34,353 nucleotides of DNA from Methanospirillaceae archaeon. GTDB taxonomy: Archaea > Halobacteriota > Methanomicrobia > Methanomicrobiales > Methanospirillaceae. The notes under the pieces are model-generated. The model did no database searches. It worked only from the letters and a program-made list of their open reading frames with translations, and was not told where the DNA came from. Position 1 is the first letter of the stretch. Every line of letters starts with the position of its first letter. Below, piece after piece: positions 4,077 to 34,185 of the stretch. The DNA lies in contig JAFGOM010000010.1 of NCBI GenBank assembly GCA_016926505.1, positions 1-34,353 of the forward strand, read 5' to 3'. Position numbers and translations under genes: made by a program.

Positions 4077-5795
4077 ATGAGTGATATTTATGAGAGTGTA
4101 ATGGATCTTGCACGTCGTCGTGGATTTGTCTGGCCTACTTCTGAGTGTTACGGCTCTGTTGCAGGTTTAATAGATTACGGCCCCCTCGGTACTATGCTGA
4201 AACGGCGGATAGAAGATACATGGCGTTCATTTTTCGTAATCCGGGAAGGATATTACGAGATTGAATGTCCAACGCTCGGGCAGGAGGCAATCTATGTTGC
4301 TTCCGGCCATGTAAAGGGATTTTCAGACAAGATGTGCCAGTGCCCGCACTGCCAGGAATATCTGCGTGCTGACCATATTGCTGAAGAGAATCATGTCCCT
4401 GAAGCTGCAACAAAAAAGGAAGACGAACTTGCTGCATGCATTGCTTCCTTTCCCTGCCCGGTGTGTAACGAGATCCTAGGCAAAACAGAAGTCTTCTCAT
4501 TTAACCTGATGTTTCAGACAACCATTGGTCCGGGATCTCAGCGACGGGGTTATCTCAGACCTGAGACCGCACAAGGGATCTTCACCGATTTTTCAAGGCT
4601 CCTGCGGTTTTACCGGGACAAATTACCCTTTGGTACGGTGCAGATCGGAAAGTCATACCGCAACGAGATCTCACCCCGGCAGGGGATGATCCGGTTACGG
4701 GAATTTTCCCAGGCTGAAGCCGAGATATTTGTTCATCCTGACAAGAAACAGCACCCGTCATTCTTTCGGTATGCTTCATATGCTTTCTCTCTTCTCTCTT
4801 CCCGCCAGCAGTTACACAAAGAAGAAGCAAAAATCTACACCATGGAGCAGGCAGTCTCTGAGTCGGTCATTGCAAATGAATATGTTGCCTATTACCTCGC
4901 CTTAACGCACGAGATCCTGACAACTATCGGCATCGACCCGGAAAAATTACGGTTCCGTCAGCACCTTCCCGATGAGCGGGCACATTATGCACTTGACTGC
5001 TGGGATGCTGAGATCTTTTCAGAACGTTTTGGCTGGGTTGAAACAGTAGGTATCGCAGACAGGACCGATTATGACTTACGGGCTCACGAGAAGCATAGCG
5101 GCGAACGGTTCAGTGTATTTATCCCGTTTGACACTCCGCAAAAAGAGAAGCAGAAACGGATAACAGCGAACATGGGAATACTGGGTCCCCGGTACCGCGA
5201 TAAAGCAAAATATATCGCAGAGGCACTTGCAGAGGCAGAACCGGGGCCGGATGGGGCATCGGTTACCATTGGCGGGGAAGAGATCTTCATTCCTGCCGAT
5301 CTCTATGAAGTCATCGAGGAAGAGGTTCTCATCCGGGGCATTGATGTGATGCCACATGTAATAGAGCCCAGTTTCGGGATAGACCGGATGCTCTATGCAG
5401 TTCTTGAGCATAGCTACAAAGAAGAGATGGTTGAAGGGGAGATACGAAGGATCTTACGACTTCCGCCCGTGATAGCCCCGATACAGGTCGCAGTCTTCCC
5501 CCTGATGCCTCGTGACGGACTTGATGAGATTGCAACCCGGCTCACCGGGAGACTGCATACATCCGGCATCATGGCAGAATATGATGATTCCGGGGCTATC
5601 GGCAGGAGATATCGACGCCAGGACGAGATCGGGACCGTTTTTGCCGTAACCATCGATTACGAAAGCAAAGAAAACAACACGGTTACACTCCGGGAGCGCG
5701 ACAGCATGAAGCAGGTTCGTATCGCTATCGAAAGTGTCCCGGATCTCATCAGGGACCTCATCAATGGTTCACGCAGGTTTGCAGATTTAATGTGA
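4077..5795 (+). CDS. glyS: Glycyl-tRNA synthetase, archaeal/eukaryotic dimer type
   Basis: A 572-residue class II aminoacyl-tRNA synthetase that charges tRNA-Gly. The N-terminal motif 1 region (YGPLGTMLKRRI) is followed by a cysteine-rich insert with CQCPHC at 88-92 and CPVC at 127-130, probably zinc-binding. Motif 2 includes RPETAQGIF at 161-169 and continues to YRNEISPRQG. Motif 3 is the SFGIDRM segment near residue 450. The C-terminal about 100 residues form the anticodon-binding domain. Length matches the archaeal alpha2 form. The ATG start follows GTGATC, close to but tightly spaced from the start. Its last codons overlap the start of hef by four bases, so the two are co-transcribed. Confidence 0.97.
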   Translation: MSDIYESVMDLARRRGFVWPTSECYGSVAGLIDYGPLGTMLKRRIEDTWRSFFVIREGYYEIECPTLGQEAIYVASGHVKGFSDKMCQCPHCQEYLRADHIAEENHVPEAATKKEDELAACIASFPCPVCNEILGKTEVFSFNLMFQTTIGPGSQRRGYLRPETAQGIFTDFSRLLRFYRDKLPFGTVQIGKSYRNEISPRQGMIRLREFSQAEAEIFVHPDKKQHPSFFRYASYAFSLLSSRQQLHKEEAKIYTMEQAVSESVIANEYVAYYLALTHEILTTIGIDPEKLRFRQHLPDERAHYALDCWDAEIFSERFGWVETVGIADRTDYDLRAHEKHSGERFSVFIPFDTPQKEKQKRITANMGILGPRYRDKAKYIAEALAEAEPGPDGASVTIGGEEIFIPADLYEVIEEEVLIRGIDVMPHVIEPSFGIDRMLYAVLEHSYKEEMVEGEIRRILRLPPVIAPIQVAVFPLMPRDGLDEIATRLTGRLHTSGIMAEYDDSGAIGRRYRRQDEIGTVFAVTIDYESKENNTVTLRERDSMKQVRIAIESVPDLIRDLINGSRRFADLM

Positions 5796-21729: not shown

Positions 21730-22908
21730 TCAGAAGAGTTCGTCGTACCTGTTCTTGCCGCTCTTTGCCTTTTTCTTTGGTTTCCCATATGGTCCCGGTG
21801 GTTTTCTCCCTTTTCCTCCTCCTCCACGATTCTGGTTCCAGATAAGAATACCAACTACTACCAGTACAATGATAATAACACCGACAACATAGGGAAGCAA
21901 AGAGAGAACACCTGAAAAGTCAACGCCGATACCCGCTGATTCTATCTCTTCCTGAAGGGTTATCGTCTCATTGAGGAGGATCTTTGACTTCTCATATGCT
22001 TCAGTTGATTTTATCTTTGCATCCGAAGACAAACCCTTATTGTACAGATCCATCGCATTCTGCGCATACTCGGCGGCAAACTCCCGGGTGGTTATGATGG
22101 GAGCAAGTCTTGGATCACTGGCCATCCTCTTCTCTGTTTTGAGAAAATCGATGATGGAATCTGCTTCTTCGATATTATTTTTTGCATCATTGATAAATTT
22201 ATCAGCGTAGCTGTAATCAAGATAAATCATCCCGTTATCAAAGAAGGTCTGGGCATTTGTCATGAGGATCTTGGCATTTGAATAACTTGCTGATTCAGCC
22301 TTCTTAATCGAATCCAATGCCTGGTTCAACTGTTCTTCCGCTTTGGAGGTATCAATCCCGAGTGTCTTGTATTCTGAAACTGCCCGGTTTAGTTCCTGGA
22401 CTTTTGTCTGGAGATCTGAAACCTCTCCTACTATCTCAGCAGCGTTTACGACAAATGCAGTTACTTCCTTTACCGTATCAAGAACCCGCCCGCTGGTGTT
22501 GACAACGTATATCCCCACCAGTGTTTTGTCCTCTGATTTCTTGACTGATGGTGCCTTTCCCGATAGTGAGACGACAACCTGGACTTCAGACTGGGGATAT
22601 TCCAGTAACCAGCCCGTGATCTTGTATGTCTCACCTGATGCTGATGGCTGGGGATTTTTAACCCCGTCAATAAGAATGTCTGCCTTCCAGACCGGATCCA
22701 CAAGATCGGTGGTCATTGATATCTCCTGGTCAATCGGGAAGGTATCATAAAAATTGATGGTAAAATCTGCAGTAACCGGTGTTCCTGCCTCAAGATCACC
22801 GGTTGGCTGGATCTTGATATATCCTGCATCGACCGATGCTGCGGAACCGGTTGCAACCATACCGCATAACAGGATAACAATACTGAGATAGTAAATACAG
22901 GTATTCAT
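21730..22908 (-). CDS. Single-pass exported membrane protein with coiled coil
   Basis: A 392-residue protein I cannot assign to a family. An N-terminal signal peptide (about 1-23, ending TGSAASV) is followed by a beta-rich ectodomain to about 150. Next is a long helical region (about 155-330) with heptad-like SDLQTKVQELNRAVSEYK and EEQLNQALDSIKKAES, then one transmembrane helix at about 337-357. A Gly-rich, Lys/Arg-rich cytoplasmic tail (35 residues) carries the end motif RYDELF. The ATG at 22908 is preceded on its strand by GGGGTG; an in-frame GTG at 22914 is rejected. It lies 156 bases downstream of cetZ on the same strand. Its short basic inner tail could bind a cytoplasmic partner. Confidence 0.85.
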   Translation of the reverse strand: MNTCIYYLSIVILLCGMVATGSAASVDAGYIKIQPTGDLEAGTPVTADFTINFYDTFPIDQEISMTTDLVDPVWKADILIDGVKNPQPSASGETYKITGWLLEYPQSEVQVVVSLSGKAPSVKKSEDKTLVGIYVVNTSGRVLDTVKEVTAFVVNAAEIVGEVSDLQTKVQELNRAVSEYKTLGIDTSKAEEQLNQALDSIKKAESASYSNAKILMTNAQTFFDNGMIYLDYSYADKFINDAKNNIEEADSIIDFLKTEKRMASDPRLAPIITTREFAAEYAQNAMDLYNKGLSSDAKIKSTEAYEKSKILLNETITLQEEIESAGIGVDFSGVLSLLPYVVGVIIIVLVVVGILIWNQNRGGGGKGRKPPGPYGKPKKKAKSGKNRYDELF

Positions 22909-23064
22909 TGACACCCCGCCAGATAATTGCTCTTTATTCTGCTGTCAGCAGATAACCGTATAAAAACCATTATTAACACCAAGAATGGTTACCATTCCTG
23001 AATAGAAAATCCTTTCGGAGATTTATGAGAAAATAAAGAGAAAAAGGACGAATAAGACAACCTT

Positions 23065-24240
23065 TCACTCAAAGAGCAGATCGATGCTCTCATCCATCTT
23101 CATACCTGACTGTTCATCCAGTTTCTCGTTTGCTTCCTTTATCTCCTTGGCAGTCTCGATTAATTTCGTGATTCTCGGAGTATTGGTGATCGTTGCCAGA
23201 AGTACGATCGCTGCAATGTAACGACTTTGTGCCGGGAAATCTCCACCCCGTACCTCAACTCCGGCGATGTTCTCTTCGACCCAGCTCTTTGCCTTCTCTA
23301 TCCCTTTTCGATCCAGTTCGTTGGGAGGACCCGCAACCAGTACCAGTGCCCGTGCAGCGGTCGTGTAATCACACGGCATCGTAAGTCTCCCAAGCATCGC
23401 CCTTCTCACGAGAGACAACGTACGGGAAGCCTTATCTTCTCCGATGAGTTTATCCTCAGGACGTTCTTCACGCCGTGTCTGGCGCCTGAATAATTTCCCG
23501 ATTCCCCTTTCAGACTCAAACTCCGGATCACTCAGTTCAGTGATAGCGTATCCGAGTGAACTGATTCCACCACCCCGGAGTGTATTGATGATCTCACTGG
23601 AATCGATGACCATCTCACCTATCCCTGCGGCTCCAATCTCTCCAGCCCTGAATAAAATCCCGAACCTTCTTACAATCTCATCATTTAAACGCTCAAAGGC
23701 TCCCTTGATACTCTCCCCTTCGTTCTTCCAGGCACTGTTATCAAATAAAAAGACATTATCTGCCTCATTAACAAGAGTAGCCAGGCTCCTGGCTGCATTG
23801 TATGAATAGAGTTTTCCTTCCTCGGGAGCAGGAAGCATACCAAGCACATACACCGGCTCATGATAAACCTTCTTGAGATATCTGGCAAGAACGGGCGCCC
23901 CTCCGGAACCGGTACCCCCTCCTAATCCTGCCACGATAATAAAAGCTTCAGTACCTCCGATTCCTTTCCGGTCAATTGCATTCATGATGATATCAATCTC
24001 ATCAAAGGTGATCCGTGCACCGGCATCGTTATCGGTTCCCACACCGTGACCCTTTACAACGGTCTGACCGATGAGGACACGATCCTCAAATGCAATATGC
24101 TGCAGACCCATGAGATCCGTGCGGGCGGTATTAATAGCAATTCCCCGGAAACTATCTGATCCTGTCCGGAGATTAGACTCGATGAACTTATCAACTATCT
24201 TCCCTCCTGCCTGACCATACCCGATAAAAAATACTTTCAT
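23065..24240 (-). CDS. cetZ: CetZ-like tubulin/FtsZ family GTPase
   Basis: A 391-residue tubulin-superfamily protein of the archaeal CetZ type. The T1 loop is GYGQAGGK at 7-14, T3 has a VGTDND-like segment, and the tubulin signature loop T4 is GGGTGSG at 107-113. A T7-like VIDSSEIINTL carries the Asp and Glu that would hydrolyse GTP in a filament, although the usual leading Asn is Val. CetZ proteins of halophiles control cell shape and motility, distinct from division FtsZ. The ATG is preceded on its strand by GGAG. It is followed by an exported membrane protein gene with no other gene between. It is divergent from the glycoconjugate operon. Confidence 0.93.
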   Translation of the reverse strand: MKVFFIGYGQAGGKIVDKFIESNLRTGSDSFRGIAINTARTDLMGLQHIAFEDRVLIGQTVVKGHGVGTDNDAGARITFDEIDIIMNAIDRKGIGGTEAFIIVAGLGGGTGSGGAPVLARYLKKVYHEPVYVLGMLPAPEEGKLYSYNAARSLATLVNEADNVFLFDNSAWKNEGESIKGAFERLNDEIVRRFGILFRAGEIGAAGIGEMVIDSSEIINTLRGGGISSLGYAITELSDPEFESERGIGKLFRRQTRREERPEDKLIGEDKASRTLSLVRRAMLGRLTMPCDYTTAARALVLVAGPPNELDRKGIEKAKSWVEENIAGVEVRGGDFPAQSRYIAAIVLLATITNTPRITKLIETAKEIKEANEKLDEQSGMKMDESIDLLFE

Positions 24241-24373
24241 GTTATTTCTCCAGTCATAATAATTGTAAGACTGCTATCTGGATTCTGTACACTCTTTATT
24301 TTGCAAATTCAAAAAGGTTCGTCCATCAGACAGATGCCAATATATGAGAACCCACCCATAATTATAGGAACGT
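24241..24373. promoter_or_regulatory. Divergent promoters, cetZ and oxidoreductase operon
   Basis: In 133 bases there are two oppositely oriented TATA-like elements: CCAATATATGAG at about 24335-24346 (plus strand, giving an almost leaderless start at 24374) and CAAAATAAAGAG on the minus strand at about 24293-24304 for cetZ. Positional inference. Confidence 0.45.
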
Positions 24374-25606
24374 ATGAAGGTATGTATCATTGGAGGAGGA
24401 CTTACCGGGCTGTCAGCCGGAATGAGACTCTCAGAGAAGGCAGACGTTACGATTCTTGAGAAAAACAACGATATCGGGGGTCTCCTCGCTTCATATACCA
24501 TCAATGATGCGTATTACCTTGAGAAATATTACCATCACTGCTTCACCTCTGATACGGCATTGTTACACCTTCTTTCAGAACTATCCCTCTCGGATCAGCT
24601 CGAATGGCGGCATACAACGACCGGGTACATGGTTGACGGGAAGATCTATCCGTTAACCACTCCGTTTGAGATACTCAGGTATCCATACCTCTCACTCATC
24701 GAAAAGGCAAAACTGGCGCACTTTACGATGAAGGCAAAAAAAATCGCTGCAGAGAGTCTTGACTCCATCACGGCACGTGATTATATCACCGATACGCTGG
24801 GTGAAGGGATCTACCGGTCATTCTTTGAACCGTTACTCCATGCAAAATTCGGAGAGATGGCAGACCGGATTGCAGCCTCCTGGGTTGTCAGCCGGGTCTC
24901 TATCAGATCAGACCGCAGTTTTGCCGGTGAACGTCTCGGGTATCTGAAAGGAGGATTTGTAACCCTTATAGAGGGACTTACCCGGGCCTGTCAGAAGAAC
25001 GGATGCCGTATCTATCCTGACTGTGCAGCAGAGAGTATCGAAAAAACTGACAGGGGATGGCTGATAAACGGGGTATTCTATCATTGTGTTCTCTCAACGA
25101 TCCCACCCCAGGCCCTTGTGGCCATCGGAGGACCGGAAATAATGCCGGTCCCATACCAGGGTGCTGCGTGCATGGCACTTGGTCTCTCCCGTGATGTAAC
25201 ACAGGGAATTTACTGGGTAAATATCAGAGACCCGGCACCTTACGGAGCAGTAATCGGACATACCAACTTTATTCCCAGGGAACGATACGGGGAAGATATC
25301 GTATATCTCGCTGCGTATCGCTCTGACAGTAATTTTTTGGGACTGGAAGAGATGATGATACATGACTTCTGCAACCGGTTTGCCATAAGCAGGAAGGATA
25401 TTTTCTGGCATCGCCTTACTACCGACCCGTATGCAGGACCCCTGTACCTGACAGGATATCACGAAAAAATGCAGGAATACCAGAAAGACTGCCTTTTTAT
25501 GGCAGGGATGTTCTCACCGGAAAACTATCCTGAACGAAGCATGGAGGGATCCATCAGGGCAGGAGAACGAATCGCCAGAACCATCCAAAACGAGGCCCGA
25601 ACGTGA
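24374..25606 (+). CDS. NAD(P)/FAD-dependent oxidoreductase, amine oxidase-like
   Basis: A 410-residue flavoprotein. The dinucleotide-binding fold is at the N-terminus: IIGGGLTGLSAGMRL (about 5-19) and the ribose-binding EKNNDIGG near 34-41. Later are GYLKGGF, the LSTIPPQALVAIGG strand, and the C-terminal FAD loop MFSPENYPERSMEGSIRAGERIA. The overall pattern resembles the protoporphyrinogen oxidase/amine oxidase or UDP-galactopyranose mutase-like group; substrate not assignable. It starts an operon and overlaps the glycosyltransferase gene by GTGA. Because its neighbours make or handle lipid-linked sugars, it may oxidise, reduce or isomerise a sugar nucleotide or a polyprenyl carrier; this is inference. 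Confidence 0.9.
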   Translation: MKVCIIGGGLTGLSAGMRLSEKADVTILEKNNDIGGLLASYTINDAYYLEKYYHHCFTSDTALLHLLSELSLSDQLEWRHTTTGYMVDGKIYPLTTPFEILRYPYLSLIEKAKLAHFTMKAKKIAAESLDSITARDYITDTLGEGIYRSFFEPLLHAKFGEMADRIAASWVVSRVSIRSDRSFAGERLGYLKGGFVTLIEGLTRACQKNGCRIYPDCAAESIEKTDRGWLINGVFYHCVLSTIPPQALVAIGGPEIMPVPYQGAACMALGLSRDVTQGIYWVNIRDPAPYGAVIGHTNFIPRERYGEDIVYLAAYRSDSNFLGLEEMMIHDFCNRFAISRKDIFWHRLTTDPYAGPLYLTGYHEKMQEYQKDCLFMAGMFSPENYPERSMEGSIRAGERIARTIQNEART

Positions 25607-26313
25607 AACCCCCTTTTGTTACGGTAATTATCCCGGTTTACAATGACGTTAGAGCATTAGAACAGGCTATTCCCTGTTCAATACGAGAGCTTGGAATGAT
25701 AACCGATCAGTTTGAACTCATCATCGCAGAGGATGCAAGTGTGGACGGATCCACCGGGCTGGTTATGGAATGGGCAGAAAAAGATCCACGGGTGATTCTG
25801 ATTCACCGGGAAGAACGGCTGGGCAGGGGATCTGCACTGACATCGGTAATCAGACAGGCGCGTGGTGAGATCATCTGTTACTATGACGTGGATCTTGCAA
25901 CAGACATGAGTCATTTAAAGGAACTGATTGCAGCCATACAGAACGGGTGTGATATCGCAACCGGTTCCCGTCTGCTCCCGGAGAGTAGTATTACCAGATC
26001 GGGAAATCGCGAGATAAAAAGCAGGGGATATAACTTCTTTGTCAGGCTTCTGCTTAAAAGCAGAATAAAAGACCATCAGTGTGGCTTTAAGGCTTTTAAC
26101 AAGGATAAGATCTCTCTCATTCTCGATACGATACAGGACAGGTACTGGTTCTGGGATACTGAGGTATTAGTGAGAGGACAAAAGGCAGGATACCGAATCT
26201 GCGAACTGCCGGTTACGTGGCGTGAAGGCCCGGGAACCACAGTCAGAACAGGAGATATCTGGAAGATGGGCCGGGCAATCATATCTTTGTGGTGGAACCT
26301 GCATGTCTCGTAA
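25603..26313 (+). CDS. Glycosyltransferase family 2, dolichyl-phosphate sugar transferase type
   Basis: A 236-residue GT-A glycosyltransferase. The N-terminal PFVTVIIPVYND is the family 2 signature, followed by EDASVDGST, a GRGSALTSVIRQARGE segment and the DVDLAT metal-binding DxD at about 94-97. Later are the acceptor-side RLLPESSITRS and KDHQCGFKAFNKD, which are typical of ALG5/DPM1-like dolichyl-phosphate glucosyl- or mannosyltransferases. No membrane helix is evident. It probably moves a sugar from a nucleotide to a polyprenyl phosphate at the inner face of the membrane. GTG start overlaps the oxidoreductase stop by four bases, and the gene overlaps the next by 11. Confidence 0.93.
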   Translation: MKPPFVTVIIPVYNDVRALEQAIPCSIRELGMITDQFELIIAEDASVDGSTGLVMEWAEKDPRVILIHREERLGRGSALTSVIRQARGEIICYYDVDLATDMSHLKELIAAIQNGCDIATGSRLLPESSITRSGNREIKSRGYNFFVRLLLKSRIKDHQCGFKAFNKDKISLILDTIQDRYWFWDTEVLVRGQKAGYRICELPVTWREGPGTTVRTGDIWKMGRAIISLWWNLHVS

Positions 26314-27265
26314 GATTTTCGGGATTATTCTCTCTGTGCTTCTTGCTGCTGCTCTTCTTTTTGTGATGCTTGCGCGGGTCTGGGATGACCTGCTCGTCAC
26401 CATCCAGTACCTGGATCCCTTTTACATCCTGCCAGCCATCGGAATCTGTCTGGTCGGCTGGATATTTCGGGGGTGGCGGTACCAGATAATCCTTGGAAAC
26501 CTGCAGGTTGCCGTCAGGTTCGTCTTTGCAACGGCATGCATCTTCTTTAGTCAGACGGTAAATCTCATTGTACCTGCACGACTGGGAGATTTTATCCGAA
26601 TCCTCATCATCAGGCATGATTACGAGGCAACGGTATCAGAGTGTCTCTCTTCTCTTGTCATCGAACGGTTTTTTGACATCCTCACAGTGGCGTTTCTCGG
26701 ACTCGTATCTCTCCTGTTTGTCCTGGATGTCCCCGACTGGTTTATCCCGGTTATACTCATCCCGCTTATCCTTTCTGTATTCTTTGCTATCTTTCTGCTG
26801 TTTGCCGGAACTTTTGCTGTCAAAAATCCCATATTCTCCTTTATCTTAAAGATGCTGGAAGAGGTAAAGACTGCATCGTTAACAAAAAGATCCCTCGCTT
26901 TTCTCTCGACGACATCCATCATCATTTGGGTGCTGGAAGCCTTTGTCTGTCTCTGCGTTACCCTCATGTTTTCTGAACAGATCCCGTTTGTTCTTATCAT
27001 GCTTGCAATCGTTATCGGAAACCTGGTAAAGGCGATCCCGCTTACACCGGGGGGTATCGGAACCTATGAACTCGCGGTTGCAATCACGTTGGAGATCGGC
27101 GGGATTGCACCTGCAGTTGCTACCCTCATCGCAGTAATTGATCACCTGATAAAGAACGTGATAACACTCGTCTGCGGTATTGCAACGATTCCCTACTTTG
27201 GACAATGGATCCTGCCTGCACTTGCTGATACCGTAAAAAAGAGAGTGTTTCGGAGTACTGACTGA
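26303..27265 (+). CDS. UPF0104/AglD-like polytopic membrane protein
   Basis: A 320-residue integral membrane protein with about seven or eight hydrophobic segments, belonging to the lysylphosphatidylglycerol synthase TM/UPF0104 group. Recognisable family stretches are SQTVNLIVPARLGDF, the GNLVKAIPLTPGGIGTYE motif and the closing VIDHLIKNVITLVCG. Related archaeal proteins are found beside glycosyltransferases and sometimes are called flippases or AglD partners; the actual activity is uncertain. The ATG at 26303 follows GTGGTGG at good spacing, so the longer frame beginning at 26222 is rejected. The stop overlaps the next start as TGATG. Confidence 0.88.
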   Translation: MSRKIFGIILSVLLAAALLFVMLARVWDDLLVTIQYLDPFYILPAIGICLVGWIFRGWRYQIILGNLQVAVRFVFATACIFFSQTVNLIVPARLGDFIRILIIRHDYEATVSECLSSLVIERFFDILTVAFLGLVSLLFVLDVPDWFIPVILIPLILSVFFAIFLLFAGTFAVKNPIFSFILKMLEEVKTASLTKRSLAFLSTTSIIIWVLEAFVCLCVTLMFSEQIPFVLIMLAIVIGNLVKAIPLTPGGIGTYELAVAITLEIGGIAPAVATLIAVIDHLIKNVITLVCGIATIPYFGQWILPALADTVKKRVFRSTD

Positions 27266-29322
27266 TGCTTCCGGCAGGAGTGCAGGTACTGGCAGTTATC
27301 TTCTGGCTCGGACTCCTTACCCTCCTGTACCTTGCGATCTATCCTTTCTTTAAAACATACCTTCCAAAAGTTGCCGTAACGGTCTCCTTCACCCTTTCTT
27401 TTCTCCTGTTCGGTATCGTCTCCTGGTATGCTGTCTATCTTGCTCTCCCGGTACAGACTGCAGTCATTCCTTTTCTCTGTCTCATCGGATGGAATCTATG
27501 GAAGACGAAAGGAGACTGCTACCGGCATGTATGGGATGAAAAGAACTGGTATCTCCTTTTTTATGGTACCTTTATCCTGTTCCTTCTCATCAGGGCCTTC
27601 TCTCCTGATATCAATGGAGCAGAGAAGTTCATGGATCATGCATTTCTTGCGTCGATGATGATAGACCCGGTTATCCCTCCTCATGATCCCTGGTTTGCAG
27701 GGGGAGATTTACGGGTATACTACTATGTCGGGTACTGGATTTTAGGTGCTGCAGGAGTTGTCACAAATACTCCCTCTGTTATCGTATTTATACTGGCAAT
27801 ACCAACCATCGTTGCCCTCTCGGCGGTAAACTGTTATGCAGTGGGACGTCTTCTGATAAAAGATCTGCACCTGATCACCCTGATTCCCCTCCTCATCGTT
27901 AACCCGGCATTTATCGCACTCTGGATCAGAGGAAACCATCCTTCCATGCTTTTCTGGGACAGCACCCGGATCATCACCGATACCATTACCGAGTATCCAC
28001 TCTTCTCCTTCACATTTGGAGACGTACATCCCCATGTCATCGGAATATGCAACCAGACGCTTATGATCCTGCTTTTGTGTACTGCTGTCTCCTGTTGGAA
28101 AAAGATAAACAAAAAAAGCCGTATCCTTCTTCTCGCTGCGATAACGGTAAGCCTTGGAAGCATGCCGGTGATAAACAGCTGGGATCTGTTTCTGTATGCT
28201 CCGGCCGTTATGCTGACCGGTCTGTGGATCGCCATAACAGGAGCAGGAGATCGAAAAGAAGGGGGGATCAGATCCCGATTCACAGGATTATCCTGTTCTT
28301 TTATCCTGCAAAACCCTATAGTTCCCTTTTGCATTCTCATTCCACTCGCCGCAGTTGCCCTGTACCTGCCCTTTTACCTGATGATGGATACCGGTGGACT
28401 GGATGGGATCGGTTTTGTTATCACGCCATCCGATCCGGTACAGTTCCTGCTCGTTCATGGTTTCTTCTTTCTGATATTCTTCTTTTCACTGCTTTCTGTC
28501 ATGAAAAAAAAGCCATATTTCCTCCTTATTCTCATACCTGCTGCGTACTTTGGGTACCTCTCTGCAGGGCTGGCAATTGTCTTTCTCATCTATCTTATCA
28601 TCAGGCATGATTCATCTCCTGATCTTCTTGCGATAGTGGGATTATCTGCCATTCTTTTCTGCGAGTTCTTCTACTTAAAAGACCACATGGGTGCAGAGTG
28701 GTATCGTATGAATACGGTCTTTAAGATGTATCTTCCCGCATGGCTTCTGACCGGCATTGCAGGCATGGTGATGGCAGGCTCTCTGATCGAGAGATCGTCT
28801 CTCTGGAGTGCCCATAAAACCAGAATAACCGGATCTCTCAGAGTTCTTGTATGTATTCTCTTCATCCTCCCGCTTCTCCCTGCCATAACAGACCATGCAC
28901 CGTACGCTCCGACCCTTGATGGATCTGCGTTCCTTGATACCAGGTATCCTGATGATGCTGCCGGAATCAGGTATCTTAAGACCCTTCCGGCTGATACCGT
29001 TATTGTTGAGGCAGAAGGGGGTGATTATTCCTACTACGGAAGGATGTCATCCTTTACCGGACTGGCAACCATCATCGGCTGGCCATTCCACGAGATCATG
29101 TGGAGAAACGATGATAGCAACTGGTATAACACCCGTCTTTGTGATCTCAGGATGATGTATGAAAATCCGGAAATGGCTGCATCACTGATGCAGAAATACC
29201 ATGCAACCGTTCTTATCATCGGTGAGGCGGAGCGCTCCCGGTATGCAGTAAAACCTCCTTTGAAGGATTTTATTCAGATATTCAAAGCAGGGTCTACCCG
29301 GATCTACCGCCTGTCTGCCTGA
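27265..29322 (+). CDS. DUF2298 'YYY' polytopic membrane protein
   Basis: A 685-residue membrane protein with more than ten hydrophobic segments in the first 540 residues and a soluble C-terminal domain. The DUF2298 signature DLRVYYYVGYW is at residues 148-158, preceded by NGAEKFMDHAF, with the acidic residues on the outer face. The C-terminal part has SSFTGLATIIGWPFHEIMWR and a small Rossmann-like end (TVLIIGEAERSRYAV), both usual in this family. The group resembles GT-C glycosyltransferases in fold and is found in methanogens and Chloroflexi with envelope glycosylation genes. It closes the four-gene operon and is followed by an A/T hairpin and T7. Confidence 0.92.
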   Translation: MLPAGVQVLAVIFWLGLLTLLYLAIYPFFKTYLPKVAVTVSFTLSFLLFGIVSWYAVYLALPVQTAVIPFLCLIGWNLWKTKGDCYRHVWDEKNWYLLFYGTFILFLLIRAFSPDINGAEKFMDHAFLASMMIDPVIPPHDPWFAGGDLRVYYYVGYWILGAAGVVTNTPSVIVFILAIPTIVALSAVNCYAVGRLLIKDLHLITLIPLLIVNPAFIALWIRGNHPSMLFWDSTRIITDTITEYPLFSFTFGDVHPHVIGICNQTLMILLLCTAVSCWKKINKKSRILLLAAITVSLGSMPVINSWDLFLYAPAVMLTGLWIAITGAGDRKEGGIRSRFTGLSCSFILQNPIVPFCILIPLAAVALYLPFYLMMDTGGLDGIGFVITPSDPVQFLLVHGFFFLIFFFSLLSVMKKKPYFLLILIPAAYFGYLSAGLAIVFLIYLIIRHDSSPDLLAIVGLSAILFCEFFYLKDHMGAEWYRMNTVFKMYLPAWLLTGIAGMVMAGSLIERSSLWSAHKTRITGSLRVLVCILFILPLLPAITDHAPYAPTLDGSAFLDTRYPDDAAGIRYLKTLPADTVIVEAEGGDYSYYGRMSSFTGLATIIGWPFHEIMWRNDDSNWYNTRLCDLRMMYENPEMAASLMQKYHATVLIIGEAERSRYAVKPPLKDFIQIFKAGSTRIYRLSA

Positions 29323-29588: not shown

Positions 29589-30575
29589 GTGGATTTAGAA
29601 ATTGCAGCCCTTAATGCACGGGCAAAAGAATGTAACGATCTTCTCCGGCCGTTGGAGAATGAGATTTTACGGGTAATCGTCGGACAGCAGCAGATCATTG
29701 ACCGGCTCATCATGGCACTGATCGCAAATGGTCATGTCCTTCTTGAGGGGGTTCCGGGAATTGCGAAAACCCTCATGATCCGGACACTTTCAGAGTGTAT
29801 TGACGGAAAATTCGCACGGATTCAGTTCACCCCTGATCTCCTTCCCGCAGATATTACCGGAACCAAGATCTACAACCAGCGGGATGGAACCTTCTCAACG
29901 GTTAAAGGACCGGTATTCAGCCAGTTTTTACTCGCTGATGAGATAAACCGTGCGCCCCCGAAGGTCCAGTCAGCACTCCTTGAGGCGATGCAGGAATACC
30001 AGGTTACCATACAGGGAGAGACCCATCACCTCGATCGCCCGTTCTTTGTTCTGGCTACCCAGAACCCGATCGAGTCTGAAGGAACGTATCCCCTTCCTGA
30101 AGCCCAGGTTGACCGGTTCATGTTCAAGGTCATCATGGGGTATCCGAAAAAATCAGAAGAGATAACCATCCTTGACCGGTTTACCGAAGGAATAACACGA
30201 AAACCGAAAACTGTAATAACCTCTGCAGATATCCTCCGGATCCAGGAGTTCCTGCCAAAAGTCTATGCAGATCCTGCCATCAAGGAGTATGTGGCCTCAC
30301 TGGTAGATGCAACGAGGAATGCCTCAGGATACGGACTATCAATCCAGCATTACATCCTCTGTGGTGCTTCCCCCCGGGCAACGATATACCTCATCCTGGG
30401 AGCCAAAGCTCATGCGCTGTTACAGGGACGCGGATATGTGATACCCGAGGATGTCCGTGCCATCGCACCTGATGTTTTACGACACCGGATCCTGCTCAAT
30501 TACGATGCTGAAGCAGATTCGGTAACACCAGAGGATATCATCAGACAGATCCAGAAAACGGTTCCGGTTCCGTAG
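29589..30575 (+). CDS. moxR: MoxR-type AAA+ ATPase
   Basis: A 328-residue AAA+ ATPase of the MoxR group, chaperone-like in assembling or activating VWA-domain partners. Motifs: Walker A GVPGIAKT at 54-61, the FTPDLLPADITG segment, Walker B LLADEINRAP, sensor 1 ATQNPIESEGTYPLPEAQ, and arginine-rich sensor 2 near the C-terminus. The GTG start is chosen for its GGAG at 29578-29581. It leads an operon with DUF58, a VWA membrane protein and two exported or membrane proteins of unknown family. This order matches the MoxR-DUF58-VWA module well known in bacteria (Bat-type). Confidence 0.95.
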   Translation: MDLEIAALNARAKECNDLLRPLENEILRVIVGQQQIIDRLIMALIANGHVLLEGVPGIAKTLMIRTLSECIDGKFARIQFTPDLLPADITGTKIYNQRDGTFSTVKGPVFSQFLLADEINRAPPKVQSALLEAMQEYQVTIQGETHHLDRPFFVLATQNPIESEGTYPLPEAQVDRFMFKVIMGYPKKSEEITILDRFTEGITRKPKTVITSADILRIQEFLPKVYADPAIKEYVASLVDATRNASGYGLSIQHYILCGASPRATIYLILGAKAHALLQGRGYVIPEDVRAIAPDVLRHRILLNYDAEADSVTPEDIIRQIQKTVPVP

Positions 30576-30592
30576 CAGGACTGGTGATATCG

Positions 30593-31480
30593 ATGAATAA
30601 TGAGAAGCTCGATGAACTGATACGGCTGGTCCGGGTTATTGACATGCGAACCCGGTTCCCGGTACAGGGTCAGGTAGCAGGTATTCATCATTCTCTGTAC
30701 AAGGGACAGGGTATCGAGTTTTCAGATATCAGGGAGTATATTCCCGGAGATGATATCCGCTCAATTGACTGGAAGGTGACAGCCCGGTATGGAAAACCCT
30801 ATGTAAAGGAGTTTACCGAAGAGCGGGATCAGACGCACTACTTTGTTGTTGACCTCTCTGGTTCCGGTTTATTCGGGGATATGATATCAAAACAAAGGCT
30901 TATACTCGAGATAATCGCAACCCTCCTGTTCTCAGCCCTACGGGACAATGATCGGTGCGGTCTTGTAATCGTGACTGATTCTGTAGAGGTCAGTATTCCT
31001 GCCCGTCCGGGAAGGAAGCATATCACGCACCTCTTAACAACACTCTTATCCCACAAACCGGTCTCGAAAGGATCAGACATGCGCCCGGCACTCGTTTATC
31101 TTGCGCAGAAACTCCGTCGTTCATGCTCGGTCATTCTCCTTTCTGACTTTATAGTTCCTGATTTTACACGCGAACTCAGACAGGTCCGGAGGCATCATGA
31201 CGTTATCGCGATACGGGTTGCAGACAGCCATGAGATCCGGTTACCTGATGTCGGGCTTATCGAACTGGAAGACGCCGAGACAGGAGAGCAGATACTTGTT
31301 GATACCGGGGATCCGTCATTTCAGAAAAACTACACTGCAGCCGTACAAGAGGCAGAAGACGAGATACAATCCAGGTTCATGCGACACAATGTTCCATATT
31401 GTACCATCATGACCCATGAGACCTGCCATGTTTCCCTTGCACGGTTCTTTTTACACAAAAAAATTGCCGGGAGGATATAA
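30593..31480 (+). CDS. DUF58 domain protein
   Basis: A 295-residue soluble protein of the DUF58 family, whose C-terminal half has a VWA-like fold. The family signature IEFSDIREYIPGDDIRSIDWKV(T) is near residue 45-65, followed by the EFTEERDQTHYFVVDLSGSG segment that supplies a MIDAS-like DxSxS motif. Such proteins are regular partners of MoxR. The ATG at 30593 follows GGTGATATC at good spacing; the in-frame GTG at 30584 forms part of that site. The stop shares one base (TAATG) with the next start, so the two are coupled. No membrane helix. Confidence 0.93.
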   Translation: MNNEKLDELIRLVRVIDMRTRFPVQGQVAGIHHSLYKGQGIEFSDIREYIPGDDIRSIDWKVTARYGKPYVKEFTEERDQTHYFVVDLSGSGLFGDMISKQRLILEIIATLLFSALRDNDRCGLVIVTDSVEVSIPARPGRKHITHLLTTLLSHKPVSKGSDMRPALVYLAQKLRRSCSVILLSDFIVPDFTRELRQVRRHHDVIAIRVADSHEIRLPDVGLIELEDAETGEQILVDTGDPSFQKNYTAAVQEAEDEIQSRFMRHNVPYCTIMTHETCHVSLARFFLHKKIAGRI

Positions 31481-32430
31481 TGACTGGTTTCTATCACCCC
31501 GCTGTGCTTCTTCTGCTTCTCATCGTGCCGGCTGCGTATTATCTTTACGGAAAGGCGACAACACGCAGAAAACACGATGCAATGTGCTTCTCACATATTG
31601 GTCTTGTTAAAACCGCATTAGGAGGCAATAAAACTTCTAATCGTCCACGAAACCTCTTTATCCTTGTTCTTTTTGCAATGGCACTCATCATCACCGGCCT
31701 TGCCGGCCCGCACATACCTCTCGAGCAGGCAAAGGAGGGAGTGAGTGTTGTTCTTGCGATTGATACATCAGGCAGTATGCAGGCAACAGATTACCTGCCA
31801 AACCGACTTGAATCAGCGAAACAAGCTGCTGATATACTGCTTTCGCATCTTGATACCAGGGATTATGCAGGGGTTATTACTTTTGAATCAGGAGCAACAA
31901 GCGCTGCATACTTAAGTCCTGATAAAAACAGAGTCAGATCAAAACTTGCTGCAATCGCTCCGAAAGAAGGGAGTACTGCAATTGGTGACGGACTCGCTCT
32001 TGCCATCGATATGGCTCTGGCAATACCTAACCAGAAGAGGGTCATCATTCTGCTCTCTGACGGGGTGAATAATGCCGGAGTAATATCACCAGATACTGCT
32101 CTCTCATTTGCCCGGGATCAGGGAATCCAGGTATTTACCGTCGGCATGGGTTCAGAAAACCCGGTTATACTCGGATATGACTGGTTCGGACGGCCGCAGG
32201 TTGCAGAACTTGATGAAGAGATGCTCAAAGATATCGCAACAAAGACGGGGGGGAAATATTACCGTTCAGTGAATGATGCAACATTAAAAGAGATTTATAG
32301 CACACTCCATCAGGAGATCGTGCGGGAGACTGAAGATACCCCGGTATCAGAGTGGTTCTTTACAGCAGCTCTCATCGTGCTTTGTCTCGAATTATGGTTA
32401 CGATACGGAAGAAGGAGGATTATTCAATGA
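31480..32430 (+). CDS. VWA-domain membrane protein, BatA-like
   Basis: A 316-residue protein with two N-terminal membrane segments (about 6-23 and 58-77), a VWA domain and a C-terminal membrane segment (about 294-310). The MIDAS metal site is complete: DTSGSM at 95-100, Thr166 in STAIGDG and the Asp of LLSDGVNN at 194. Such BatA-type proteins bind partners through a metal ion outside the active enzyme. The second VWA protein (BatB) and a BatD protein that often follow in bacteria are replaced here by two unfamiliar genes. It overlaps its upstream neighbour by one base and the downstream one by four. Confidence 0.95.
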   Translation: MTGFYHPAVLLLLLIVPAAYYLYGKATTRRKHDAMCFSHIGLVKTALGGNKTSNRPRNLFILVLFAMALIITGLAGPHIPLEQAKEGVSVVLAIDTSGSMQATDYLPNRLESAKQAADILLSHLDTRDYAGVITFESGATSAAYLSPDKNRVRSKLAAIAPKEGSTAIGDGLALAIDMALAIPNQKRVIILLSDGVNNAGVISPDTALSFARDQGIQVFTVGMGSENPVILGYDWFGRPQVAELDEEMLKDIATKTGGKYYRSVNDATLKEIYSTLHQEIVRETEDTPVSEWFFTAALIVLCLELWLRYGRRRIIQ

Positions 32431-33386
32431 GATTAGAGAATGCTCTAATGTGGGTGTGTATGACAGCAGCATTACTTTTCGGATACCCGGTACTGGCAGA
32501 AGAGATCGTTTTCTCAACCGGCCAGAGTGACTACTATGTTCTGGTCGGGGAGGAGAGTGACATTCCGCTCTCAATACAGAGTGATTATCCTGATCCAGTC
32601 AGGGGTATGCTCCTGTACTCGATGACACAGGCAATCCAGGCACAGGGTCTCTCCAGTTCTTTTACCAACCAGCAGCAGCAGAGCTTTTCAATCAATCCGG
32701 GAAGTACCGGGACAGCACTCCGGGTTGGTGCACAGAATACTCCCGGAAGTATGAAACTGGATATCGCTTACGAATATACCGATGATAGCGGAGAGAAAAC
32801 GGTTATCCTTCCCACCATCACGATTCATGTTATCGAGAATCCTGACCAGGCGCAGAACCAGAACAACACCCGGCAGAGTTCAACAACAAAAGGACATGCA
32901 CAACAATCCGGTTCCGGGAGCACACAGGGGATAACAGCACAGGATCTTCTCTCCCAGATGCAGCAGGATATGATGCAGCAGATGATGACACGTCCCCAGG
33001 CAGGATCTGCAGGAAATCAGGAGAGACAACAATCTGCCCAGGAAGCACTCTACAACAACCAGATGAATGCTGATGCTACTGCACTTGCAGAACAACTGGC
33101 AACCGAGGCAGAGAAGAAGGAAGACGAGAAACAATCCCTGGAACAGGCATTAAAACAAGACCTCCTTTACCAGAAAGCGGTACGGTTGCTGCTTGATACC
33201 GGATATTCTGAATCATCTGCAACACTGATTCCCACGACAAACGATTCCGGTTCATTCTCGATGCAGTATACCAGTCAGGCAGGAGTTGGTATGCAGCTTA
33301 CCGGGACAATCAAAGAGGGAGAGGTATCCTCTCTCTCGATAGAAGGAACAGGGGGATTACAGGGGAGTGAAAATCCTGGTGAATGA
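32427..33386 (+). CDS. Exported Gln-rich protein of unknown family
   Basis: A 319-residue protein with a signal peptide (about 1-24, cleavage after PVLA), no other membrane segment. Residues 25-137 look like a beta sandwich; 138-245 are a Gln/Asn/Ser-rich linker with QMQQDMMQQMM and helical EALYNNQM; the C-terminal about 75 residues are a small ordered domain. I do not recognise a family. The ATG follows AAGGAGGAT at good spacing and overlaps the VWA stop as ATGA; a longer frame from 32352 is rejected. As an exported member of a MoxR-VWA operon it is a candidate client or adaptor. Confidence 0.85.
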   Translation: MRLENALMWVCMTAALLFGYPVLAEEIVFSTGQSDYYVLVGEESDIPLSIQSDYPDPVRGMLLYSMTQAIQAQGLSSSFTNQQQQSFSINPGSTGTALRVGAQNTPGSMKLDIAYEYTDDSGEKTVILPTITIHVIENPDQAQNQNNTRQSSTTKGHAQQSGSGSTQGITAQDLLSQMQQDMMQQMMTRPQAGSAGNQERQQSAQEALYNNQMNADATALAEQLATEAEKKEDEKQSLEQALKQDLLYQKAVRLLLDTGYSESSATLIPTTNDSGSFSMQYTSQAGVGMQLTGTIKEGEVSSLSIEGTGGLQGSENPGE

Positions 33387-33435
33387 TACTAAGGAGCCGG
33401 GATCTGTTACATATATCACTACTTGAGGAACAGAG

Positions 33436-34185
33436 ATGGAGAAAAAAACACGATACGACCTGATAATCCCTGCTGCAATCTTTCTCATTCTCACCGTGCT
33501 GGTACCGATAGCCGGAGCAGTTATTGAGAGTGACCTTCCGATACCAGAGATACTCGCGAAAAACGTTCAATTTACCGGATATACCTCGAAACTGTCTGAT
33601 GAAGGCTTTGGGTTAGATGAATTTATTTCTACCATGACCGCTCCAGACAAGACCAGTGTTACCATCACCTATGCCGGTCCGGGAGAGAGACAGGCAGTCA
33701 TTACTGCAGAGATGACCGGAGATGTAGTTACCAAAATCAGCATGAAAAAAGAAGAAGAGCCGGTCTGGCCCCTCCTCCTGGTACTGCTCATCATCATCAT
33801 CGGTCTTATTGCCGGATACTATCTGTATACCCGCTATCATCATCTCACCCCAGCTGTACCCATAGAAGTCCCGGACGTCCGGAAAAGCCCGGAAGAAGAA
33901 GCAGAAGAGATCCTGATCCTGGCTGAAAAAGCCAGGGAAGAGGGAGATTTAAAGACCGCATACGCTCTTGCAGGCAGGGCATTGCGGGTTTTTATCTCTC
34001 TGACATATGGTTGTGGAACTGAGGAGACAAATATGGAGATAATTCACCTTTACAAAAATACCGGAGAGAAGACAGATACCGTCTCAAATATTTTGCAGAC
34101 CTGTAGTCTTGTCGAATTCGCCAAAAAAGAAGGAGACACAGATGAATTCAGTGCTATCGTATCAGTCATTCGCGGACTAATCTGA
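33436..34185 (+). CDS. Two-pass membrane protein of the MoxR operon
   Basis: A 249-residue protein with an N-terminal membrane helix or signal anchor (about 8-28), an about 80-residue extracytoplasmic domain, a second helix at about 110-131 and a cytoplasmic C-terminal region of about 118 residues. The latter has charged helices (EEEAEEILILAEKAREEGDLKTAYALAGRALRVF(I) is split over the tetratricopeptide-like pattern) and ends in VSVIRGLI. It resembles the C-terminal part of DUF4129-type or Bat proteins only loosely. The start ATG follows GAGGAACAG. It is separated by 49 bases from the preceding gene. No family is named. Confidence 0.8.
   Translation: MEKKTRYDLIIPAAIFLILTVLVPIAGAVIESDLPIPEILAKNVQFTGYTSKLSDEGFGLDEFISTMTAPDKTSVTITYAGPGERQAVITAEMTGDVVTKISMKKEEEPVWPLLLVLLIIIIGLIAGYYLYTRYHHLTPAVPIEVPDVRKSPEEEAEEILILAEKAREEGDLKTAYALAGRALRVFISLTYGCGTEETNMEIIHLYKNTGEKTDTVSNILQTCSLVEFAKKEGDTDEFSAIVSVIRGLI

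Follow-up and report, generated by a model that had tools for sequence, protein, structure and literature searches.

The window analysed here is a stretch of 34,353 nucleotides from a Methanospirillaceae archaeon (contig JAFGOM010000010.1 of assembly GCA_016926505.1, positions 1 to 34,353); it corresponds to C88 among the contigs of its genome, whose size is 2.94 Mb. Between positions 24374 and 29322 it contains four genes in head-to-tail order, encoding a flavoprotein with flavin adenine dinucleotide (FAD) binding, a family 2 glycosyltransferase (GT2), a UPF0104 protein and a DUF2298 protein. Families were assigned with Pfam and NCBIfam profiles.

24374..25606, plus strand: FAD flavoprotein of the PRK07233/NF005560 family, with amine-oxidase/phytoene-desaturase fold (from family profiles and a predicted model)
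25603..26313, plus strand: GT2 glycosyltransferase of the polyprenyl-phosphate-hexose-synthase type, without a membrane domain of its own (from PF00535, a match to 5mlz and a DVD motif)
26303..27265, plus strand: UPF0104/LPG_synthase_TM (TIGR00374, flippase-like) membrane protein (from PF03706 and GT2 fusions in relatives)
27265..29322, plus strand: DUF2298/Chlor_Arch_YYY membrane protein, a predicted GT-C glycosyltransferase with an AglB-like C-terminal globular domain (from profiles and a model)

As read from the sequence, the genes overlap by 4, 11 and 1 bases. The GT2 reading frame starts with GTG, and that of UPF0104 with the ATG at 26303; a mechanical list of open reading frames places the latter start at the GTG at 26222. 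Both the overlaps and the family names given in the original prediction were borne out, by the coordinates of the plus-strand reading frames and by the profile matches, respectively. The prediction had also called this packing tighter than most of the window. The overlaps are real, but they are only partly telling because seven other adjacent same-strand pairs of the window overlap as well (e.g. at 5792, 12262, 13026, 17289 and 31480), according to a gene list that was compiled greedily and lacks the GT2 reading frame. Overlap alone is therefore weak evidence and was rejected as an argument. Unlike the overlap itself, its conservation is not weak evidence: in the window and its relatives, the genes overlap at 94 of 105 flavoprotein-GT2, 108 of 108 GT2-UPF0104 and 74 of 109 UPF0104-DUF2298 junctions, with starts inferred by alignment to the window proteins and with partly redundant loci.

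DUF2298 was found in 97 of 100 sampled Methanomicrobiales genomes. In a sample of 294 genomes of the phylum, it was detected in 172 at E ≤ 1e-3, and 160 scored over the cut-off. The order sample comprised 41 loci from 34 Methanomicrobiales genomes, which held 42 DUF2298 genes. All four genes were present together in each of the 34 genomes, contiguously in 33 and with one inserted gene at L099, so that the comparison of gene order across Methanomicrobiales did not refute the idea of a single pathway. The remaining eight DUF2298 genes were second copies without the set, and in the same genomes the first copy had it. A second set consisted of the best 80 of 416 loci from one scan, all from Methanomicrobiales (Methanoregula, Methanospirillum, Methanoculleus and others), and held 81 DUF2298 genes in 79 loci, no DUF2298 reading frame having been called in L167, whose contig breaks off at the gene. 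In this set, which shares some genomes with the order sample and is thus not independent of it, 71 of the 81 DUF2298 genes were accompanied by the whole four-gene set. Seven of the ten incomplete cases were cut by contig ends (L123, L162, L173, L178, L182, L195 and L199), two were tandem second copies of DUF2298 (L157 and L163), and the one exception was L135, with UPF0104 on the opposite strand. As an internal control, 12 other genes of the window served as queries in the order loci shown; apart from one match (L072), none lay within a distance of about 9 kb. In genome G010, flavoprotein, GT2 and UPF0104 occur once more on a small contig that lacks DUF2298 (L238, 2138-5103); this is either a second copy or a contaminating contig.

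Outside the order, the set recurs in rearranged form. At L115 the arrangement is flavoprotein-GT2-DUF2298-DUF2298-UPF0104-GT2. L231 holds a flavoprotein, a gene on the opposite strand, DUF2298 and a GT2/UPF0104 fusion, and at L237 a flavoprotein and such a fusion are convergent with DUF2298. No flavoprotein lies nearby at L118 (GT2/UPF0104 fusion-DUF2298-UPF0104) or at L113 (DUF2298-GT2/UPF0104 fusion). GT2 and UPF0104 are fused in one protein at all of these loci except L115, i.e. at four. Most other loci outside the order had DUF2298 alone or beside GT2 only. In the 123 genomes outside the order (G100-G222), the flavoprotein and DUF2298 were both present in 41 and both missing in 78, three genomes had only the flavoprotein and one only DUF2298; the flavoprotein had to score over its cut-off and DUF2298 to reach E ≤ 1e-19, while weak matches, with E from 1e-3 to about 1e-10, were treated as absence. 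Within each of the families f8, f16 and f23, some genomes have both genes and others neither, and these splits suggest that the pair was gained or lost together more than once.

The DUF2298 protein matched PF10060 (4e-91, 306.9 bits against a cut-off of 27.8) and TIGR03662 (493.7 bits against 300.25). An AlphaFold2 model built from a 67-sequence alignment had a mean predicted local distance difference test score (pLDDT) of 92.2 and a predicted template modelling score of 0.93. Foldseek returned 264 matches to this model at E ≤ 10. All 11 matches at E ≤ 1e-3 were GT-C enzymes, with AftA at the top (2.2e-7), followed by DPY19, STT3, AglB (2.5e-5) and AftD (8.6e-4). When the model was aligned with 998 chains by VIA-align, the best rows were yeast STT3 (Z 16.1, 464 residues, 7.1 Å), Pmt1-Pmt2 (15.8, 360, 4.9 Å), ArnT (15.6, 450, 5.5 Å), AftA (15.2, 486, 5.0 Å) and AglB (14.8, 442, 6.0 Å), and the first row that is not GT-C had a Z of 7.2. 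Because rows within one Z unit are tied, no closest GT-C family can be named. The DUF2298 protein is thus predicted to have a GT-C fold, and the structural comparison proposed in the original prediction did not refute its idea; the assignment may already stand in public clan tables.

According to the model, the GT-C fold spans residues ~81-685, and residues 555-684 match the globular domain of AglB (3vu0, Z 9.1, 109 residues, 2.8 Å). E120, D141, Y153, Y154, D253 and H255 are invariant in both DUF2298 alignments (26 and 67 rows); H257 is invariant in the 26-row alignment and conserved to at least 90% in the other. GT-C enzymes carry an acidic residue in the first external loop after the first helix of the core, and the position of E120 would fit this: the core begins at about residue 81-93 and has a helix at 84-112, followed by E120 and D141, a placement made from ranges and not from a residue-level overlay. 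Membership in the STT3/AglB family was rejected, as PF10060 was the only match at E ≤ 1e-3 and PF02516 did not match. Among control genomes, DUF2298 was detected in Haloferax and Methanosarcina, not in Methanocaldococcus or Sulfolobus.

The GT2 protein matched PF00535 (4e-25) and has a DVD motif at residues 95-97, as read in the sequence. Its best solved relative is dolichol monophosphate mannose synthase (5mlz, 3.9e-13); next come the GT2 of entry 6yv7 and then, among others, ArnC- and GtrB-type enzymes. With a DxD motif and this synthase as the nearest solved enzyme, the protein fits a probable polyprenyl-phosphate-hexose synthase of the DPMS/AglJ/AglD type. More specific names were rejected, namely AglJ (TIGR04182, 32.2 against a cut-off of 325 bits) and haloarchaeal dolichyl-phosphate hexose transferase (NF041391, 53 against 375 bits), and so was an AglD-type single chain, GT2 and UPF0104 being separate genes in the window. 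The UPF0104 protein matched PF03706 (3e-49, 168.6 bits against a cut-off of 33.4) and TIGR00374, and its sequence had no match in the PDB at E ≤ 1. UPF0104 has been predicted to be a flippase and forms the C-terminal domain of AglD-family proteins, according to the part covered of Makarova et al. 2015 (PMC5898192).

The flavoprotein matched PF01593 and, well over the cut-off, NF005560/PRK07233 (411.1 against 252 bits). All 56 members of set A3 match HpnE, PRK07208, a protoporphyrinogen oxidase model and zeta-carotene desaturase, and the window protein scores below the cut-off of each of these models. It was rejected as HpnE (58.6 against 283 bits) and as UDP-galactopyranose mutase (27 against 303.75 bits). 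In VIA-align, its predicted model (pLDDT 93.4) aligned best with phytoene desaturase (5mog, Z 35.5, 404 residues, 3.2 Å), then with protoporphyrinogen oxidase (Z 33.5) and UDP-galactopyranose mutase (4dsg, Z 29.3); structure search separates the families of the amine-oxidase fold poorly (Z 29-35). Since the curated families closest to it have isoprenoids or porphyrins as substrates, we prefer an isoprenoid, here the polyprenyl carrier, as the substrate.

We read the four genes as a glycosyl-transfer module encoded in one operon, to which we assign a probability of about 0.7. To judge from its family and nearest solved enzyme, the GT2 protein would work on the cytoplasmic side and charge polyprenyl phosphate with one sugar, with a nucleotide sugar as donor. 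UPF0104 would anchor GT2 and help the polyprenyl-phosphate sugar across the membrane, as the GT2-UPF0104 fusions and the parallel with MprF and AglD suggest. The predicted GT-C enzyme DUF2298 would take the sugar on the outer face and pass it on to an acceptor at the surface, for which an envelope protein or its glycan is the most likely candidate, and the flavoprotein would most likely alter the isoprenoid carrier, less likely the sugar. Support for the single pathway proposed earlier for these genes comes from families, fold, synteny and co-occurrence.

Several observations weigh against this module. A GT-C fold, itself predicted, does not by itself show a function, and the Foldseek TM-scores to GT-C enzymes were modest (0.34-0.45 on the query). 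The flippase role of UPF0104 is putative, and caution in assigning it is needed because, in the part covered of the review PMC5744192, flipping of the mannose-charged dolichol phosphate of Haloferax is ascribed to AglR and the transfer to AglS. Flavoprotein and DUF2298 are not neighbours at most of the loci outside the order; G112, G132 and G201 have the flavoprotein without a strong DUF2298, G159 shows the reverse, and the co-occurrence counts carry no phylogenetic correction. The second copies of DUF2298 in the order also occur without the cassette.

The original prediction, to which no pathway with all four genes was known, overstated the novelty of the trio of GT2, UPF0104 and a GT-C enzyme. 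This trio is a known kind of module, AglD being a GT2-UPF0104 fusion and neighbourhoods of this type having been described in 2015 (PMC5898192), and what is added here are the flavoprotein and DUF2298, which make the operon a variant of the AglD-type logic. In the AglD/AglR/AglS branch of Haloferax volcanii N-glycosylation, as far as its descriptions were covered, a GT2 enzyme likewise charges polyprenyl phosphate with one sugar, a UPF0104 domain is fused in AglD, and a separate enzyme transfers the sugar from its lipid phosphate. In contrast, GT2 and UPF0104 are separate overlapping genes in the window, the transferase would be DUF2298, a flavoprotein is added and the divergent neighbour is cetZ. 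The arCOG00899-arCOG00563-arCOG00897 neighbourhoods of Makarova et al. 2015 (PMC5898192) similarly combine UPF0104, an AglD-like glycosyltransferase and a distant PMT/STT3 relative, but the passages covered name neither a flavoprotein nor DUF2298. The DUF2298 protein resembles the GT-C enzymes STT3/AglB, PMT, ArnT, DPY19 and AftA in its predicted fold and its AglB-like C-terminal globular domain; it differs from them in extra N-terminal helices (model residues 1-80), in the missing PF02516 match and in invariant motifs of its own around E120, Y153-Y154 and D253-H255-H257. The bacterial ArnC/ArnT and GtrB-type undecaprenyl-phosphate-sugar systems follow the same logic of GT2, membrane handling and GT-C. 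The window GT2 is related in sequence to structures of the ArnC and GtrB types, but the module itself is archaeal and has UPF0104 as the membrane partner. With the proposed module, an uncharacterised membrane family nearly universal in Methanomicrobiales obtains a testable function and an AglD-like module gains a redox partner.

The alternatives that survive best concern the acceptor, and we regard modification of an AglB-made N-glycan and protein O-glycosylation as equally likely. In the former case, which is possible although we hold it only tentatively, the operon would serve no new acceptor and would add a terminal sugar to the N-glycan of the AglB pathway, like AglD and AglS in Haloferax. 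There, in the descriptions covered, the GT2-UPF0104 chain AglD puts mannose on dolichol phosphate, from which AglS moves it to the glycoprotein. The GT2-UPF0104 fusions adjoining DUF2298 in relatives fit this scheme, and two STT3-family genes (PF02516) in the genome of the window make an N-glycan likely. However, both of these genes lie on other contigs (C95 and C109), an identity of AglS with DUF2298 is not established, and the Haloferax AglD/AglS pathway, in so far as its description was covered, has no counterpart of the flavoprotein.

The second of these alternatives, to which we give the same tentative weight, takes DUF2298 as a PMT-like protein O-glycosyltransferase with which the operon would O-glycosylate archaeal surface proteins. 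O-glycosylated surface proteins are documented in the portions of the literature covered: the archaellum of Methanospirillum hungatei is O-glycosylated at six residues and N-glycosylated at two (work cited by PMC5517150), and an O-glycan is present on the S-layer glycoprotein of Haloferax, pathways being characterised for two of its three N-glycans (PMC12186497). As of 2016, O-mannosylation had not been described in archaea, according to the part covered of PMC4973528. The occurrence of DUF2298 in the Haloferax and Methanosarcina controls, and not in the two others, is in line with O-glycosylation, as is the Z score to Pmt1-Pmt2, but the fold does not separate PMT from STT3, ArnT and AftA (Z within 1). 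The operon is a candidate for archaeal O-glycosylation, the enzymes for which are unnamed in the literature covered.

An unlikely alternative concerns the flavoprotein, which by analogy could be an enzyme like UDP-galactopyranose mutase or an epimerase that provides an unusual sugar for a furanose-type glycan. The model for this is mycobacterial decaprenyl-phosphate-arabinose with AftA. AftA was indeed the top Foldseek match of DUF2298, mutase structures are among the fold neighbours of the flavoprotein, and TIGR00031 matched it weakly (2e-6). Nevertheless, that mutase profile stayed far below its cut-off, and with HpnE, zeta-carotene desaturase and protoporphyrinogen oxidase as the nearest curated families, matched by 51-56 of the 56 members, the mutase was not among the 25 listed. 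Least probable is that the four genes are mere neighbours without a shared pathway in an inherited arrangement of the order, since, although all order loci share ancestry and carry cetZ and its partner in the same block, the other window genes queried were not retained nearby, the set occurs again outside the order in other arrangements and with a GT2-UPF0104 fusion, and the flavoprotein and DUF2298 co-occur unlinked.

Divergently upstream of the operon stand cetZ and the gene of a membrane protein, with a conserved element in the intergenic region.

23065..24240, minus strand: CetZ tubulin-superfamily GTPase of Halobacteria-like type (PF21011, 1e-68, 230.8 bits; PF00091, 7.5e-31, 108.3 bits)
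21730..22914, minus strand: protein with signal peptide, envelope domain, one transmembrane helix and a cytoplasmic tail YDELF, just downstream of cetZ
24308..24324, no strand: conserved non-coding element between cetZ and the flavoprotein gene, with five mismatches to the consensus of relatives

Of the 34 order-sample genomes with the cassette, 33 have cetZ, and the locus of the other (L088) is cut. In the second set, cetZ is present in 57 of 71 loci, and in the other 14 the flavoprotein gene starts at most 1,373 bases from the contig end. The partner follows cetZ in every order-sample locus with cetZ and in 56 of 57 of the second set. No linkage of CetZ and cassette was found in 17 CetZ loci outside the order (one of which, L205, covers only 4 kb), and our literature search, including the part covered of the CetZ survey PMC9856176, found no report of the pairing. 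The synteny part of that survey has three Methanomicrobiales loci, all outside the Halobacteria branch and with few similarities, and so does not cover the CetZ group of the window in Methanomicrobiales. The window CetZ is taken as probably Halobacteria-like, because it scored 399-408 bits against the CetZs of the GC-rich, probably haloarchaeal L212-L214 and 121 bits against the second, divergent CetZ of its own genome (L217, contig C35), a judgement from pairwise scores and not from a tree. Twelve CetZ C-termini, including that of the window, share a conserved IEPLFE-like tail.

The 21730-22914 protein, which had no Pfam match, is a candidate membrane partner of CetZ. All 89 partner proteins (window included) end in [WY]DEL[GFA], and there was no other [WY]DEL in their 33,116 residues. 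Profile comparison related them (99.9%, 6e-32) to proteins encoded directly behind cetZ in other lineages, at 12 loci that had been picked by a match to the same partner profile and include probable Halobacteria; five of these 12 relatives have a looser [WYF][DE]xL tail. In the intergenic region (24241-24373, 133 bases), the element holds a fixed position: 83 of 90 regions contain it with at most four mismatches at 64-91 nt from the start of cetZ, against about 1.6% of shuffles, which overstate its significance as the intergenic sequences are related. A second element, with at most four mismatches in 52 of 90 regions, is not present in the window.

The divergent pairing of the operon with cetZ and its partner in Methanomicrobiales is seen as synteny, and a functional tie may underlie it. 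A bolder reading, which we consider quite improbable, is that DUF2298 is an archaeal protein O-glycosyltransferase and that the operon and CetZ form a functional unit, in which CetZ filaments would grip the invariant C-terminal WDELG tail of the single-pass envelope protein and the operon would glycosylate this protein, or else the envelope where CetZ positions it, so that the shape of the cell would be coordinated with the glycosylation of its surface. The pairing of cetZ with a membrane protein whose tail is invariant hints at a way in which a tubulin of archaea might be attached to the envelope, an idea open to testing in tractable genera such as Haloferax and Methanosarcina. In genome G064, a second DUF2298 gene lacks the cassette and has a CetZ-like gene beside it in the same orientation (L069, 8586-11900).

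On the other side of the operon, the MoxR-DUF58-vWA genes were rejected as members of the system, since they are not retained near the cassette in relatives. They belong to another tight gene run on the plus strand (29589-34185), which we take from its sequence to encode a MoxR-like ATPase, a DUF58-like protein, a vWA-like protein and the products of further genes.

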